From Chitinophaga vietnamensis (GTDB lineage: Bacteria > Bacteroidota > Bacteroidia > Chitinophagales > Chitinophagaceae), in NCBI RefSeq assembly GCF_902167635.1, contig NZ_CABHMS010000006.1:372001-436000 (forward strand): a stretch of DNA of 64,000 bases, written 5' to 3'. The notes under the pieces were generated by a model. It was given only the letters and a program-made list of their open reading frames with translations. It had not been told where the DNA came from and made no database searches. The position numbers were made by a program, and so were the translations under genes. This document shows positions 3,064-31,008 of this stretch, piece by piece. Every line of letters starts with the position of its first letter. Position 1 is the first letter of the stretch.

Positions 3064-3153
3064 ATAGGTAGTTCGTAAACAGCAAAGAAACGAGCTGTTC
3101 GTAAAAGAATCTCCTCAAAAAGGGAAAATCATTTACGGATTTGGGAATTTCCG

Positions 3154-3205
3154 GATTTACGGATTTATTGATCAATCTCCCCGCAAATCTATAAATCCGT
3201 AAATC
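3154..3205. repeat. inverted repeat with TTTACGG motif
   Basis: GATTTACGGATTTAT (3154-3168) is repeated as a perfect reverse complement at 3191-3205, with a 22-base loop. A further partial copy, ATTTACGGATTTG, lies just upstream at 3131-3143. It sits just beyond the 3' end of the YbaB gene and before the PepSY start, so it may end transcription of the former. Related TTTACGG words occur elsewhere in the window. Confidence 0.6.
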
Positions 3206-3223
3206 AAAAAATCCCCCAATATT

Positions 3224-8235: not shown

Positions 8236-8264
8236 GATCTTGTGCTGGGTTGCTTTTAAGTGAA

Positions 8265-8301
8265 CCGCCCCTTGAGGCGCTTCAGGCACTTCAAGGGGCG
8301 G
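8265..8301. repeat. GC-rich intergenic hairpin, family shared with 27422-27464
   Basis: CCGCCCCTTGA (8265-8275) pairs with TCAAGGGGCGG (8291-8301); the inner part pairs further with one mismatch around the loop TTCAG. It lies between the DUF4836 gene and the ABC ATPase gene. There is no T-tract on either side, so it may be a Rho-type or processing element rather than a classical terminator. Its core is nearly identical to the hairpin at 27422-27464. Confidence 0.7.
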
Positions 8302-8319
8302 CGTACTGAATAATATGAA

Positions 8320-12709: not shown

Positions 12710-14605
12710 GTGGCGGATATCATCAATTTATTACCAGACAATATAGCGAACCAGATAGCTGCGGGAGAAGTGATACAAAGACCGGCATCGGCGGTAAAAG
12801 AGTTACTGGAGAATGCAGTGGATGCAGGTGCAACGGAAATTCAGCTGATCATAAAAGATGCAGGCAAAGAATTAGTGCAGGTAATTGATAACGGCGGCGG
12901 AATGAGTGAAACCGATGCCCGTATGTGTTTTGAACGTCATGCTACCTCCAAGATACAAACCATCGAAGATCTTTTCTCTATCCGTACCATGGGCTTTCGC
13001 GGTGAAGCCCTCGCCTCTATTGCTGCGGTATCACAGGTAGAACTGAAGACCCGCAAGAAAGGCACCGATATCGGTACTTATATAGAGATAGATAATAGCC
13101 TGGTCAATAAACAGGAACCCTGTCAAACTTCAGAAGGCACCAGCATCGCCATGAAGAACCTCTTCTTCAACGTGCCGGCACGACGTAACTTCCTGAAAAG
13201 CAATACCGCGGAGATGCGCCATATCGTGGATGAATTTATCCGCGTGGCTATGGCATTCCCACAACTGCAATTCTCGCTCACCAGCAATAACCAACAACTT
13301 TTCCACCTGGAAAAAGGCTCGCTCAAACAGCGTATCATCGCCATCCTGGGCCAGCACTACAATGCCAAACTGGTGAACGTTAAAGAAAGTACCGACTACA
13401 TGAACGTATACGGCTTCGTGGGCAAACCGGAAACGGCCAAGAAAACCCGCGGCGACCAGTTCTTCTTCGTCAACAACCGCTACATCAAAAGCCCCTACCT
13501 GCATCATGCAGTGATGAACGCTTTTGCAGATATCATCCCGGCCGACAGCTTCCCGCTGTACGTCCTCTTCATTGATGTCAACCCGGAACATGTAGACATC
13601 AACGTACATCCTACCAAACAGGAAATCAAATTCGATGATGAGAAAGTGATGTACGCCTTCGTACAGGCCGCAGTGAAACATGCCCTGGCCCAGTTCAGCG
13701 TAACGCCCACACTGGATTTCGACCTGGATCCCAATATCCAGCACCTCGATGCCGTGAGCAAACCTTTCACCGCAGAAAAACAACACGAATCCACCCACTC
13801 ACCACTGTACAAGTCCTTCACACAGGCCAACCAGGCCCATATGATCGACCGCAGTAACAGTAACCTGAAGCACTGGAAAGACCTCTACGAATCCGGCAGC
13901 GGCCAAACGCAGCATAACGCTCCCGCCTATACGGAAGATGACGAAGCCGAAACCCGCCCCGCCGTTACGTATGAAACCCACGCTCCTGCCACCGCTTCCG
14001 CCATCGATGAGCGCTGGCAAGATACTTCCAAAGACCAGAAAGTACCGGTACAGGTACATCAGCAATATATCCTGTCGCAGATCAAGTCAGGCTTCATCCT
14101 GATCGATCAGCACGCGGCACACGAAAGGATCCTGTACGAACGCTATCAGCGCGCCTTACACGAAACGCCGATGGCCACCCAGCAAAGCCTCTTCCCGCAA
14201 ACCTTACAGCTGCCCCCCGCAGATGCCGTACTGGTAAGCGAAATGCTGCCCGACCTCCAGGCACTGGGCTACGACCTCGAACCTTTCGGCAACCACACCT
14301 TCGTGGTGCGCGGCACCCCGGCCGATATCGCCCAAGGCAACGACCAGGCCACCATCGAAGGACTGCTGGAACAATTCAAACACTTCAGCCACGAACTCAA
14401 AGTGAACAGGCGCGAACACCTGATCCGGTCCATGGCGCGCAATAACGCCATCCCCGCCGGCAAAACCCTCAGCGCCCGCGAAATGCAAAACATCATCGAC
14501 GAACTCTTCGCCTGCAGCATGCCCAACGTAGCTCCCGGCGGCAAGTTCACGTTCATCTCCTTCAAACTCACTGACCTCGCGCGAATGTTCGAACGCGGGA
14601 ATTAA
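12710..14605 (+). CDS. mutL: DNA mismatch repair protein MutL (endonuclease type)
   Basis: A 631-residue protein from GTG 12710 (MADIINLLPDNIANQIAAGE). The N-terminal GHKL ATPase shows ELLENAVDAG, DNGGGM and GFRGEALASI. A transducer domain extends to about residue 335, followed by a variable linker rich in Thr/Ala. The C-terminal dimerisation domain contains DQHAAHERILYE, which fits the DQHA(X)2E(X)4E metal-binding motif of endonuclease-active MutL, as expected in bacteria without MutH. The gene ends two bases before the giant palindrome at 14608-14803. Confidence 0.96.
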   Translation: MADIINLLPDNIANQIAAGEVIQRPASAVKELLENAVDAGATEIQLIIKDAGKELVQVIDNGGGMSETDARMCFERHATSKIQTIEDLFSIRTMGFRGEALASIAAVSQVELKTRKKGTDIGTYIEIDNSLVNKQEPCQTSEGTSIAMKNLFFNVPARRNFLKSNTAEMRHIVDEFIRVAMAFPQLQFSLTSNNQQLFHLEKGSLKQRIIAILGQHYNAKLVNVKESTDYMNVYGFVGKPETAKKTRGDQFFFVNNRYIKSPYLHHAVMNAFADIIPADSFPLYVLFIDVNPEHVDINVHPTKQEIKFDDEKVMYAFVQAAVKHALAQFSVTPTLDFDLDPNIQHLDAVSKPFTAEKQHESTHSPLYKSFTQANQAHMIDRSNSNLKHWKDLYESGSGQTQHNAPAYTEDDEAETRPAVTYETHAPATASAIDERWQDTSKDQKVPVQVHQQYILSQIKSGFILIDQHAAHERILYERYQRALHETPMATQQSLFPQTLQLPPADAVLVSEMLPDLQALGYDLEPFGNHTFVVRGTPADIAQGNDQATIEGLLEQFKHFSHELKVNRREHLIRSMARNNAIPAGKTLSAREMQNIIDELFACSMPNVAPGGKFTFISFKLTDLARMFERGN

Positions 14606-14607
14606 CG

Positions 14608-14803
14608 CGAAGGTTGTCTTACTCAGGATTATAATGATTGAAAGGATTCGCAGGATTTTTTACAGGATTTATAAAGATTAAAAAAGGATTCGCGGAGATC
14701 AGCTCGAATTGATCTTCCCGAATCCTTTTTTAATCTTTATAAATCCTGTAAAAAATCCTGCGAATCCTTTCAATCATTATAATCCTGAGTAAGACAACCT
14801 TCG
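14608..14803. repeat. 196-bp near-complete palindrome with 85-bp perfect arms
   Basis: The left arm (14608-14692) is the exact reverse complement of the right arm (14719-14803). Pairing continues inward (14694-14702 with 14709-14717, including wobble), leaving only a few bases unpaired. Each arm holds several AGGATT words at irregular short spacing (such as AGGATTCGCAGGATT). The element lies between convergent mutL and the gluconokinase gene and covers the last 27 bases of the latter. It could act as a bidirectional terminator, but the size is far beyond what termination needs. Confidence 0.95.
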
Positions 14804-16231
14804 GAATCTATCAAACTTAGGCCTGTATATTTCGTGCAGCCTCATATCTGGCTGGAACAGTTTTTCTTTTGCGGAGGCCAAACCCGCTATGGGTGGCATT
14901 TTGAGCGCGGAGGCGGCTAGTATGATGGCGCCCAGGGCGGAGGCGTCGCTTTGTTGTTGCAGGGTCATGGGCTGCCCGAAGATGTCGGCCAGTAGCTGGA
15001 TCCAGGCGGGGGAATGTGTAAAGCCGCCACTGACGGATATCTTGCGGACTTCGCCGGCGGTTTCCTGTAAAGCGTTTTTGATGTTGAGCAATGCAAAGCA
15101 GGTGCCTTCCAGTACGGCACGCGTGAAATGAGGCGCACGATGCTGTGGCTGTATACCGATGAAAGCCGCTGTAGCGCCGCTATCCCAGATGGGCGCCCGC
15201 TCGCCGAGCAGGTAGGGCAGGCATAGCAGCCCGTCTGGCGGCAGCGCCAGGGCCTCGTTGATCAGCCGGTCGGTGTTTTCAGGCGGCTGTTGGAGGAAAT
15301 CGCGCAACAACCATTGCAACACCACGCCGCCATTGTTGGTAGCGCCGCCCATGATATAGACATCGTCGGTAAGCAGGTAGGTGAAGAGCCGCGCCTGTGG
15401 ATCAGTGACGGCCCCGGGAATGGCCATCCGCACCGCGCCGCTGGTGCCGATAGTGAGGGTGGCATGGCCAGCGTCCATGGCGGCGCTGCCCAGCTGGGCA
15501 AGGCATCCGTCGCTGCCTCCCATCACAAGCGGGGTATCGGGCGGGATGCCCAGTTCCTTTGCTATGGCGGATTTCAGTCGACTGATGATATGATCCGCCG
15601 GCACGGGCTGTGGCAGGCGTTGGACTTGAAGACCGGCAGCTTCCAGCGCAGGCACGCTCCATTGCAGGGTGTGGATGTCAAAGAGGCCAGTGGCCGATGC
15701 GATGGAATGATCGACGAGGTATTCGCCGGTAAGATGATGGATGATATATTCCTTGATGCCGATAAACAGCTTCGCGGCAGCAAACACGGACGGCTGCTCC
15801 TTTTGCAGCCATATGGCTTTGCTCAGCGGCGACATGGCATGTACCGGTGTGCCGGTGCTGTGGTAGATCGCCGCGCCTGCCGGTGTGGCGCGCAGGGCTT
15901 CCGCGAGTAGCTGGCTGCGGTTATCCGCCCAGATGATGAGCGGGGTAAGCGGCGCCCCTGCTGCATCTATGGCCATGAAGCTATGCATGGCGCTACTGAA
16001 GGAGATAGCCGCCGGCGGATGCCCCACCTGCTGTATTACTGCACGGATGCCGGTCATCACAGCCTTCAGAATTCTGTCGGGGTCCTGTTCGCTAAATCCG
16101 GGCGCCGGGTGCGCCGTTGGATAGGCTTCCTTCCAGCTGGAGAGCACCTGGCCGTTCATGCCTAGCCCAATCGTTTTAGCACTGCCCGTGCCGATATCTG
16201 AGCCGATAATATATCTGTATCTCTCACTCAT
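14777..16231 (-). CDS. gntK: FGGY-family carbohydrate kinase, gluconokinase-like
   Basis: A 484-residue kinase from ATG 16231 (MSERYRYIIGSDIGTGSAK), preceded by GGAAAGG at a good distance; another in-frame ATG lies at 16255. FGGY-N carries the DIGTGSAKT phosphate loop and the SSAMHSFMAIDAAG and WADNRS segments that are typical of gluconokinases. FGGY-C carries MGGSDGCLAQLG, TIGTSGAVR and VSGGFTHSPAW. Xylulokinase is the alternative. The last codons (RRLSYSGL) lie inside the right arm of the 14608-14803 palindrome, so the C-terminal tail derives from the repeat. It is divergent from the GMC gene across 80 bases. Confidence 0.8.
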   Translation of the reverse strand: MSERYRYIIGSDIGTGSAKTIGLGMNGQVLSSWKEAYPTAHPAPGFSEQDPDRILKAVMTGIRAVIQQVGHPPAAISFSSAMHSFMAIDAAGAPLTPLIIWADNRSQLLAEALRATPAGAAIYHSTGTPVHAMSPLSKAIWLQKEQPSVFAAAKLFIGIKEYIIHHLTGEYLVDHSIASATGLFDIHTLQWSVPALEAAGLQVQRLPQPVPADHIISRLKSAIAKELGIPPDTPLVMGGSDGCLAQLGSAAMDAGHATLTIGTSGAVRMAIPGAVTDPQARLFTYLLTDDVYIMGGATNNGGVVLQWLLRDFLQQPPENTDRLINEALALPPDGLLCLPYLLGERAPIWDSGATAAFIGIQPQHRAPHFTRAVLEGTCFALLNIKNALQETAGEVRKISVSGGFTHSPAWIQLLADIFGQPMTLQQQSDASALGAIILAASALKMPPIAGLASAKEKLFQPDMRLHEIYRPKFDRFRRLSYSGL

Positions 16232-16311
16232 AAAAAACCTTTCCTTTTTACGCATTTAATTTATAGATTTAAAACCGGTGTTCTTAAAATAAAGACTAAA
16301 ATTTCCACGAA

Positions 16312-18051: not shown

Positions 18052-18114
18052 TAATTACGGATTACGAATTAAGAATTACGCGTTTCGTAATTCTTAATTC
18101 GTAATCCGTAATTA
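18052..18114. repeat. 29-bp-arm palindrome abutting the GMC stop codon
   Basis: The arms 18052-18080 and 18086-18114 are perfect reverse complements with loop CGTTT. The repeat begins at the base after the TGA of the GMC gene. The word GAATTAAGAATTACG (18066-18080) recurs exactly at 30928-30942 in the second copy of this family, which also directly follows a TGA stop. Confidence 0.9.
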
Positions 18115-27421: not shown

Positions 27422-27464
27422 GGAGAAGCCCTTGAAGCGCTTCGGGCGCTTCAAGGGCTTCTCC
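27422..27464. repeat. 19-bp-arm hairpin with TTCGG loop, family shared with 8265-8301
   Basis: GGAGAAGCCCTTGAAGCGC (27422-27440) pairs perfectly with its reverse complement (27446-27464) around TTCGG. It sits between the Gfo/Idh/MocA stop and the dacB start. There is no T-tract. The core CCCTTGAAGCGCTTC is nearly the same as in the hairpin at 8265-8301. Confidence 0.85.
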
Positions 27465-29986: not shown

Positions 29987-30913
29987 ATGGAAAGACGAAA
30001 ATTCTTGCAACAAGGCACGCTGGCAGGCATCTCCGCGATGGCGCTGGGCGGCATCACAGGCAGCGCCAAAGCCGCTGCCGCCGCGGGTTCCGGCCTGTCT
30101 GAAAAACCCTTCCAGATGAACTATGCGCCGCACGACGGCCAGTTCAAAAATAATGGCGGCGCCAGTTTTCTCGATCAGATAAAATTCATGTATGACCAGG
30201 GCTTCCGGGCCATAGAAGATAATGGCATGCTGGGCCGCGATGCCGCCGAACAGGAAAAGATCGGCAACCTCCTCGCCCAGAAAGGCATGACCATGGGCGT
30301 TTTCGTAGTGGATACCGGTAACAACTGGAAAACTTCACTCACCACCGGCAAACAGGAATTTAAAGACGCTTTCCTGAAAACCTGCCGCGAATCCGTTACA
30401 GTGGCCAAAAGAACCAATGCCAAATGGATGACCGTTGTTCCCGGATTCTTCGACCGCAGCATTCCGATGGGTATTCAAACCGCTCATGTAGTAGATGCAT
30501 TGCGCCGCGGCGCAGAGATATTCGAGCCGCATGGCCTTGTAATGGTGCTGGAACCCCTCAGCGATACGCCCGAACTCTTCCTCCGCACGGCAGAGCAGAG
30601 CTTCGAAGTATGCAAGGCGGTGAACAGCCCGTCCTGCAAAATATTATACGATATCTATCATATGCAACGCAACGTAGGTAACCTGATCCCCGTGCTGGAC
30701 ATGTGTTACGAAGAAATTGCGTATATCCAGATTGGTGATAATCCCGGCCGTAAAGAACCCGGCAGCGGAGAGATCAACTACCGCAACATCTTCAAACATC
30801 TGCATCAAAAAGGCTACAAAGGCGTGCTGGGCATGGAACATGGCATGACCGGCCAGGGTAAGGAAGGAGAGATCGCTTTGATCAAAGCATACAGAGACGC
30901 AGATAATTTTTGA
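29987..30913 (+). CDS. sugar phosphate isomerase/epimerase-like TIM barrel, exported
   Basis: A 308-residue protein. The N terminus MERRKFLQQGTLAGISAMAL is a Tat-type signal ending near AKAAAAA. The rest is an AP-endonuclease-2-like TIM barrel with VLEPLSDTPE, KILYDIYHMQ, IAYIQIGDNPGRKEP and GVLGMEHGM; Glu, Asp, His and Glu at these places are the metal ligands of hydroxypyruvate isomerase and related enzymes. Exported members accompany Gfo/Idh/MocA proteins in keto-sugar pathways. It is transcribed divergently from the FGE/Gfo operon. Its TGA stop touches the palindrome at 30913-31008. Confidence 0.85.
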   Translation: MERRKFLQQGTLAGISAMALGGITGSAKAAAAAGSGLSEKPFQMNYAPHDGQFKNNGGASFLDQIKFMYDQGFRAIEDNGMLGRDAAEQEKIGNLLAQKGMTMGVFVVDTGNNWKTSLTTGKQEFKDAFLKTCRESVTVAKRTNAKWMTVVPGFFDRSIPMGIQTAHVVDALRRGAEIFEPHGLVMVLEPLSDTPELFLRTAEQSFEVCKAVNSPSCKILYDIYHMQRNVGNLIPVLDMCYEEIAYIQIGDNPGRKEPGSGEINYRNIFKHLHQKGYKGVLGMEHGMTGQGKEGEIALIKAYRDADNF

Positions 30914-31008
30914 TAATTACGAATTGCGAATTAAGAATTACGGCTTTATGGGGAGATCATGTGATCTCCCCATAAAGCCGTAATTCTTAATTCGCAATTC
31001 ATAATTAT
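30913..31008. repeat. 47-bp-arm palindrome at the epimerase stop codon
   Basis: Arms 30913-30959 and 30962-31008 are reverse complements with one mismatch (30920/31001) and one two-base centre. The outer part is shared with the 18052-18114 palindrome (GAATTAAGAATTACG exactly, the rest with two differences). The inner part (CTTTATGGGGAGATCA) is specific to this copy. It starts in the TGA stop of the preceding gene and ends 36 bases before the holin-like gene. Confidence 0.9.

Follow-up and report, generated by a model that had tools for sequence, protein, structure and literature searches.

Between the convergent genes mutL and an FGGY carbohydrate kinase of Chitinophaga vietnamensis lies a palindrome with 85-bp perfect arms, one of which runs into the kinase coding sequence. 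What is such a structure, how does it come to stand at the ends of two genes, and what keeps its arms matched? The initial annotation of the window (the whole stretch of 64,000 nucleotides analyzed here) left several answers side by side: that the palindrome might be young, maintained by gene conversion, or functional, either as a bidirectional terminator or as a mobile non-coding element. The reading favored here, with moderate confidence, is that it is a gene-less, non-autonomous hairpin mobile element that is linked to a GxxExxY nuclease and acts as the bidirectional terminator of both mutL and the kinase.

Features of the palindrome and of the two genes that it separates (window coordinates)
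Feature	Position	Strand	Remarks
mutL	12710..14605	+	Stop codon 2 nt before the perfect arm; MutL_C match
Left outer arm, 85 nt	14608..14692	+	Perfect complement of 14719–14803; starts CGAAGGTTGTCTTACTCAGGATTA, the family-A end
Core: A-run, imperfect hairpin, 6-nt loop, T-run	14680..14731	.	AAAAAAGGATTCGCGGAGATCA..TGATCTTCCCGAATCCTTTTTT; limits set by eye
Right outer arm	14719..14803	-	Outermost 27 bases (14777–14803) are the last eight codons and stop of the kinase
FGGY carbohydrate kinase (gluconokinase of the initial annotation)	14777..16255	-	Convergent with mutL; C terminus inside the palindrome

Among inverted repeats with arms at most 2 kb apart, this is the longest of the window, the runner-up having arms of 47 nt. 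A repeat search delimits it as two 94-nt arms (14608–14701 and 14710–14803), 98% complementary around a spacer of 8 nt, and a base-by-base check finds the 85 perfect outer pairs, starting with CGAAGG, and the non-Watson–Crick positions further in: a C·C mismatch at 14693/14718 and G·T at 14695/14716 and 14702/14709. As RNA it folds into 85 outer pairs, one mismatch, nine inner pairs and a 6-nt loop at −153.6 kcal/mol, whereas 200 shuffles average −39.75 (sd 4.21) and none of them was as low (z = −27; with DNA parameters, z = −23). Thus, the initial annotation was accurate as to the length of the perfect arms, the near-complete pairing, the convergent setting, the AGGATT words in the arms and the kinase C terminus, whose residues RRLSYSGL and stop codon are read from the right arm.

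The same annotation had advised a search for the arm sequence in the genome and its relatives, and this reveals a dispersed family, termed family A (the family letters A–F and the rule by which repeats are sorted into them are this analysis's own). With the palindrome as query, the 6.3-Mb source genome (G000) yields at least 40 places, each matched on both strands (80 matches), with 40 scored among 131 candidates. The family-A end pattern TTGTCTN{6,8}GATTN{3,8}GATT occurs 77 times forward and 76 times in reverse in this genome, against 0 and 0 for the reversed pattern used as control. The ends read GCGAAGGTTGTCT or close to it. Measured from one TTGTCT to the other, the unit is 164–238 nt long in 25 of the 27 distinct copies that a motif search of the available sequence recovered with both ends, the other two being a mis-paired one of 135 nt and a gene-bearing one of 615 nt. 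Across the genus, 5 of 36 genomes are rich in family A, namely the source genome together with G002, G004, G027 and G034, at 58–224 matches per strand (58 on each in G004); the remaining 31 have at most two, with controls at 0–2. An assembly artefact is improbable, given at least 40 near-whole places in the source genome and, in relatives, palindromes at this slot that have a sequence of their own. Inspection of the 27 copies by eye, as filled sites, showed no target-site duplication, and Rfam at the gathering threshold had no match in loci L001, L031 and L032.

Several individual copies merit mention in their own right. Two (L009 and L010, at C7:96655 and C7:27956 of the source genome) have both unique flanks in common, in inverted order, indicating a duplicated segment. 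At 649636–650502 of contig C1 (L113), family-A-like arms surround one complete ORF, presumably of a dihydrofolate-reductase/RibD-type protein, which makes cargo capture possible. Nested palindromes, with one repeat at the symmetry axis of another, occur on the same contig at 477104–477375, 966558–966754 and 1004172–1004409—e.g., family A inside family E, or a GCCCTTGAAGCGC hairpin inside family A—as though the tips of hairpins served as targets. The window, too, has a GCCCTTGAAGCGC hairpin, at 27422–27464, of the same type as those found inside family A at other places of the genome, with a looser look-alike at 8256–8310.

The position of these repeats was surveyed on contig C1 (1.1 Mb), for which a simple gene model gives 859 genes with 135 convergent, 587 tandem and 136 divergent gaps, and on which 113 inverted repeats were sorted by word. 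The 20 family-A loci there fall between convergent genes in ten cases (p = 0.0004) and in tandem gaps in the other ten, with none in divergent gaps (p = 0.03) or inside genes. For 17 of the 20, the nearest stop codon is at most 13 nt away, a distance at which 0.078 of the possible points would be expected to lie. Families B (9 of 11), C (31 of 39), D (5 of 6) and E (3 of 5) and the unclassified repeats (17 of 21) are likewise found within this distance, and family F is not (0 of 11). From its position and anatomy, and with no other hairpin at the slot, the core of the mutL–kinase palindrome may be read as a bidirectional intrinsic terminator. The terminator option of the initial annotation gains from the terminator-like position and loses from a simple promoter and terminator scan, which called nothing inside the palindrome; the T-run after the core hairpin is visible by eye, but it pairs with the A-run, and the scan calls no terminator there.

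What occupies this slot in relatives? Of 40 genus genomes, 30 yielded a locus in which the stretch behind mutL was read by eye; the kinase is the next gene in many of them, though not in all. Family A stands there in three and in truncated form in one, family C in one, families D and E in two each, an AAAGC palindrome in one and a short AAAGC relic in one; otherwise there is a terminator-like hairpin or nothing obvious. G027 and G034, two of the four other genomes rich in family A, carry it at this slot, and that the palindrome is young, as had been suggested, is neither proven nor needed. On the MutL tree, the distribution of family A, the truncated copy included, takes four changes, of which at least three are forced by well-supported branches, gains and losses being indistinguishable. 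A second slot has family A in G000, G004, G027 and G034, family C in G030 and family B in G082; G002 lacks synteny there. At a third, family A is present in G000 and G027, family B in G082 and a terminator-like hairpin in G030, another gene following directly in G002, G004 and G034. Furthermore, the mutL-slot copy of the source genome is 0.74 alike to that of G034 and 0.69 to that of G027, where random family-A pairs between the source genome and the others have means of 0.715–0.753 and pairs within the genome 0.893. As the copies at this slot are no more alike than random cross-genome pairs, either the sites were refilled or the copies were homogenized within species. Comparison of these slots suggests that terminators have been replaced by mobile DNA at orthologous sites, and the mobile-element option of the initial annotation gains support from dispersal and turnover alike.

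The matching of the arms can be followed in the same copies. After one with mismatched ends was dropped from the 27, arm identity within a copy is 0.980, as against 0.864 between copies, and 25 of the 26 left arms find their closest right arm in the same copy. An alignment of 14 copies has, over the 83 non-apical pairs, 65 two-sided changes, none that is one-sided and five unpaired cells, whereas the apical 11 pairs of these copies show two two-sided and eight one-sided changes and eight unpaired cells. Similarity or intact ends guided the choice of both samples, which favors matched arms and overstates intactness, and 16 copies from four relatives are less perfect, with arm identities of 0.73–0.95. 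The pattern points to copying of arm onto arm at the level of DNA rather than to selection on the RNA, since stepwise RNA compensation should leave G–U intermediates and arm-onto-arm copying should not; template switching has been described, in the available text of PMC8794818, as able to create and fix stems. The gene-conversion option of the initial annotation is thereby strengthened, as homogenization acts inside single copies. These data also bear on the idea that the hairpin is selected as RNA, for mRNA 3′-end stability or as an RNase III site, with the copies being domesticated RNA elements. The very stable fold and the 3′-end position would suit it, as would the rRNA-inserted IVS hairpins that are cut by RNase III (according to the accessible parts of PMC4990558); however, the lack of one-sided changes in the outer pairs is unexpected under stepwise compensation, and this explanation is quite unlikely.

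A candidate for the gene behind the dispersal emerges from the flanks of a single locus. A profile search of the source genome finds one PF13366 gene, whose protein is a TIGR04256 GxxExxY/PF13366 PDDEXK_3 protein; its D62, E72 and K74 are invariant when 20 of the 30 loci are aligned. The gene has a peptidase M13 gene on one side and a CBM9-domain gene on the other, and inverted family-A arms of 65 nt that are 95.4% alike (E 2e-25) enclose it; the arms of the mutL–kinase palindrome are homologous to these inverted flanks. In the source genome, gene arms and dispersed arms are alike at a mean of 0.919 (best 0.978), where the means for other genomes do not exceed 0.783. The gene arms of G002 also match the copies of their own genome best, with only two copies to compare there; for those of G027 and G034, the copies of their own genome are not the best match. 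By strict self-BLAST, 10 of 30 loci have an inverted pair flanking the PF13366 gene. These include four of the five loci at which the M13 side was recognized by eye (a CBM9-like neighbor was likewise seen in four); the one missed by self-BLAST, L058, has another gene at the CBM9 position and only the M13 side in common.

Presence of the gene and dispersal of the family go together across the genus: of the 36 genomes, four have both a type-1 gene and dispersal, one (G004) dispersal only, two the gene alone (G030 and, by a distant gene, G001) and 29 neither, for a Fisher p of 0.0012 that ignores kinship and relies on types assigned by eye on the alignment, no type being given to the broken second match of G011 or the weak match of G022. 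G004 is rich in family A, yet a profile search finds no PF13366 gene in it. A PDB sequence search with the protein gave no hit up to E = 1, and PADLOC had no hit for L031 and nothing beyond weak nuclease-type hits for L045.

A second kind of GxxExxY gene occupies one conserved place in seven relatives (L045, L047–L051 and L057), which we take to be the nuoF–nuoG junction, with GCAAAG-type words in its flanks. Four of these seven loci, assigned to this home by eye, are among the ten with an inverted pair. The GCAAAG triple pattern occurs at least five times in six of the seven genomes with the second-type gene, G017 having none; among genomes without that gene, G000 and G027 have it too, G034 has it once, and the other six searched have none. 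At two loci, an arm overlaps a neighboring coding sequence: in L031 (375–1484, minus strand), the CBM9 protein takes its signal-peptide-like N terminus (MWIKKSEKTKILLILSIIIILSKTTFA) from the element arm, and in L052, an arm likewise encodes the N terminus of a neighbor. The element arm may derive from a signal peptide or may have been put to use as one.

An alternative partner would be a RAYT, i.e., a Y1 tyrosine transposase, with family A as a REP-type element moved by it. Family A is indeed palindromic, dispersed and intergenic, and the source genome has a single Y1_Tnp gene (L251); but this is flanked on both sides by family F in tandem arrays (CTACCAATAT..CGCCCC..GGGGCG), not by family A, and looks like an ordinary REPtron. 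Moreover, G002, G004, G027 and G034 have no Y1_Tnp match despite their 58–224 family-A ends per strand, and family F keeps no proximity to stop codons. With the sole RAYT going with family F, a RAYT/REP origin of family A was rejected as highly improbable.

The link to GxxExxY reaches beyond the genus. A scan with the GxxExxY protein of the source genome retained 80 of 90 loci, which by record title belong to Bacteroidota, Gammaproteobacteria, Desulfobacteraceae, Caldilineaceae, Planctomycetaceae, Poribacteria and others, although many are metagenome bins and some labels may be wrong. In several phyla, GxxExxY genes are flanked by TTGTCTGAAC..GATT ends. Among the 76 usable loci (four had a flank below 120 nt), the motif GTCTGAA[CT] points inward on the left in 27, on the right in 17 and on both sides in 10, as against 9 and 2 in the wrong orientation, and 10 of 22 outside genomes searched have at least five end patterns on each strand (controls 0–3). 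A flank test on the 76 loci, scoring a locus's own pair of flanks above the 99th percentile of cross-pairs, was passed by 20 with inverted and 21 with direct repeats where fewer than one was expected; with direct repeats no rarer than inverted ones, the signal in this sample does not lie in inverted orientation alone. By eye, several direct-repeat loci seem to have a complete copy of the repeat to the left and to the right of the gene. Cleaner evidence than flank orientation comes from the oriented end motif.

It might still be that host terminators have grown in place into long palindromes through template switching at replication, with no mobile element at all and a GxxExxY gene that simply lies inside one of them. 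Such growth would account for arm homogenization devoid of one-sided changes and for the unclassified hairpins in the same niche, and the capacity of template switching to make and fix stems speaks for it too. It leaves unexplained why arms of 70 nt are about 86% alike at unrelated sites, why the end motif is held in common with GxxExxY flanks in other phyla, and why dispersal is nearly all-or-none between species; it is accordingly considered unlikely.

A parallel to the nuclease gene is provided by PF05635, the four-helix protein of 23S rRNA IVSs. In relatives, inverted periodic words flanking PF05635 genes exceed the cross-pair 99th percentile at 13 of 29 loci and direct words at none of the 29 (a further locus, L289, was too short). 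Among the words are those of family B (AATTACG; L296, in G029), family C (GATTTACG; L297, in G011) and the AAAGC palindrome (L283 and L285, and by eye L286). The only PF05635 gene of the source genome (L032) has family-C words beside it by eye and is not among the loci passing the flank test. As PF05635 shows the same architecture, the nuclease is not a general requirement. Within the window, there are two family-B palindromes, a separate dispersed family, at 18052–18114 and 30913–31008, and a family-C palindrome at 3139–3220. Proteins of the PF05635 family are probably kin to the Avd proteins of DGRs. This raises the question of a retro-type element, in which a host reverse transcriptase, helped by the small protein, would copy hairpin RNA into DNA. 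The preference for transcript 3′ ends and the shared architecture with the four-helix protein would be in keeping with it; it is judged very unlikely.

The favored mobile-element reading may then be phrased as a mechanism. A fuller form of the element would be a GxxExxY (PDDEXK_3) gene with the same arms, inverted, on either side. Arm-bearing DNA would be spread by the nuclease, or by host enzymes that act on the cruciform or hairpin, to terminator sites, where the A-run/hairpin/T-run core would stop transcription from both sides. Copies would be tolerated or even favored at 3′ ends, taking the place of an ordinary terminator, in this instance that of mutL and the kinase. Polymerase template switching, to judge by the pattern of changes, would copy arm onto arm and keep the arms perfect, and gene-less copies would come to dominate. 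The initial annotation, in part supported in its options, had missed both the nuclease link and the wider set of similar families.

More tentatively, GxxExxY might define a multi-phylum class of hairpin elements that target terminator sites, bring their own bidirectional terminator, are mostly gene-less and have arms copied as DNA, with PF05635 marking a parallel class of which the rRNA IVS would be a special case. If so, this would give a role to GxxExxY, a protein almost unstudied, and an origin to the AGGATT, GCAAAG, AATTACG and GATTTACG palindromes behind many genes, and perhaps to the rRNA IVS; family A would also offer a natural test bed for the persistence of very long perfect palindromes in bacteria. 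In the full-text literature searched, to which most subscription papers and all preprints are external, GxxExxY is named in two papers, only in passing in the text available, and searches there for a palindrome family–nuclease link, IVSs outside rRNA and terminator-like MITEs returned no description of the link.

Known systems resemble the palindrome in part. Like bidirectional intrinsic terminators, it occupies a slot between convergent genes and has what reads by eye as an A-run/hairpin/T-run core; unlike ordinary terminators, it belongs to a dispersed family with conserved arms and nuclease-gene kin. MITEs are by definition non-autonomous, with inverted ends held in common with a gene-bearing copy. 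The IS-derived MITEs covered by the accessible parts of PMC10969869 are akin to family A in both respects, family A and its gene-bearing copy having terminal inverted repeats in common and GxxExxY being the putative autonomy gene; family A differs in that the whole element is one palindrome, that GxxExxY falls outside the known transposase families and that no target duplication is seen. SPRITE of Streptococcus pneumoniae is likewise a terminator-like repeat near gene 3′ ends, with a duplex of 18 bp as against 94 pairs here and with no gene partner in the portions of PMC3049150 available. The IVSs, in the available text of PMC4990558, are 23S rRNA hairpins cut by RNase III, with an S23 ORF preceded in Coxiella by heptamer repeats; the GxxExxY element is comparable as a long hairpin possibly with one small ORF and with short repeated words before it, whereas the palindrome lies between mutL and the FGGY kinase rather than in 23S rRNA, and the ORF of its family is GxxExxY. 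REP/RAYT systems (REPtrons and TIRtrons; PMC3733652, in the part accessible) share with family A the gene-less intergenic palindromes and a partner gene set in the same repeats. However, a REP unit measures 20–40 nt and bears a GTAG tag, in contrast to about 180–250 nt and no GTAG visible by eye at the ends of family A; the RAYT partner is a Y1 transposase where that of family A is a PDDEXK_3 protein, and family A sits much tighter to stop codons than does family F of the same genome.
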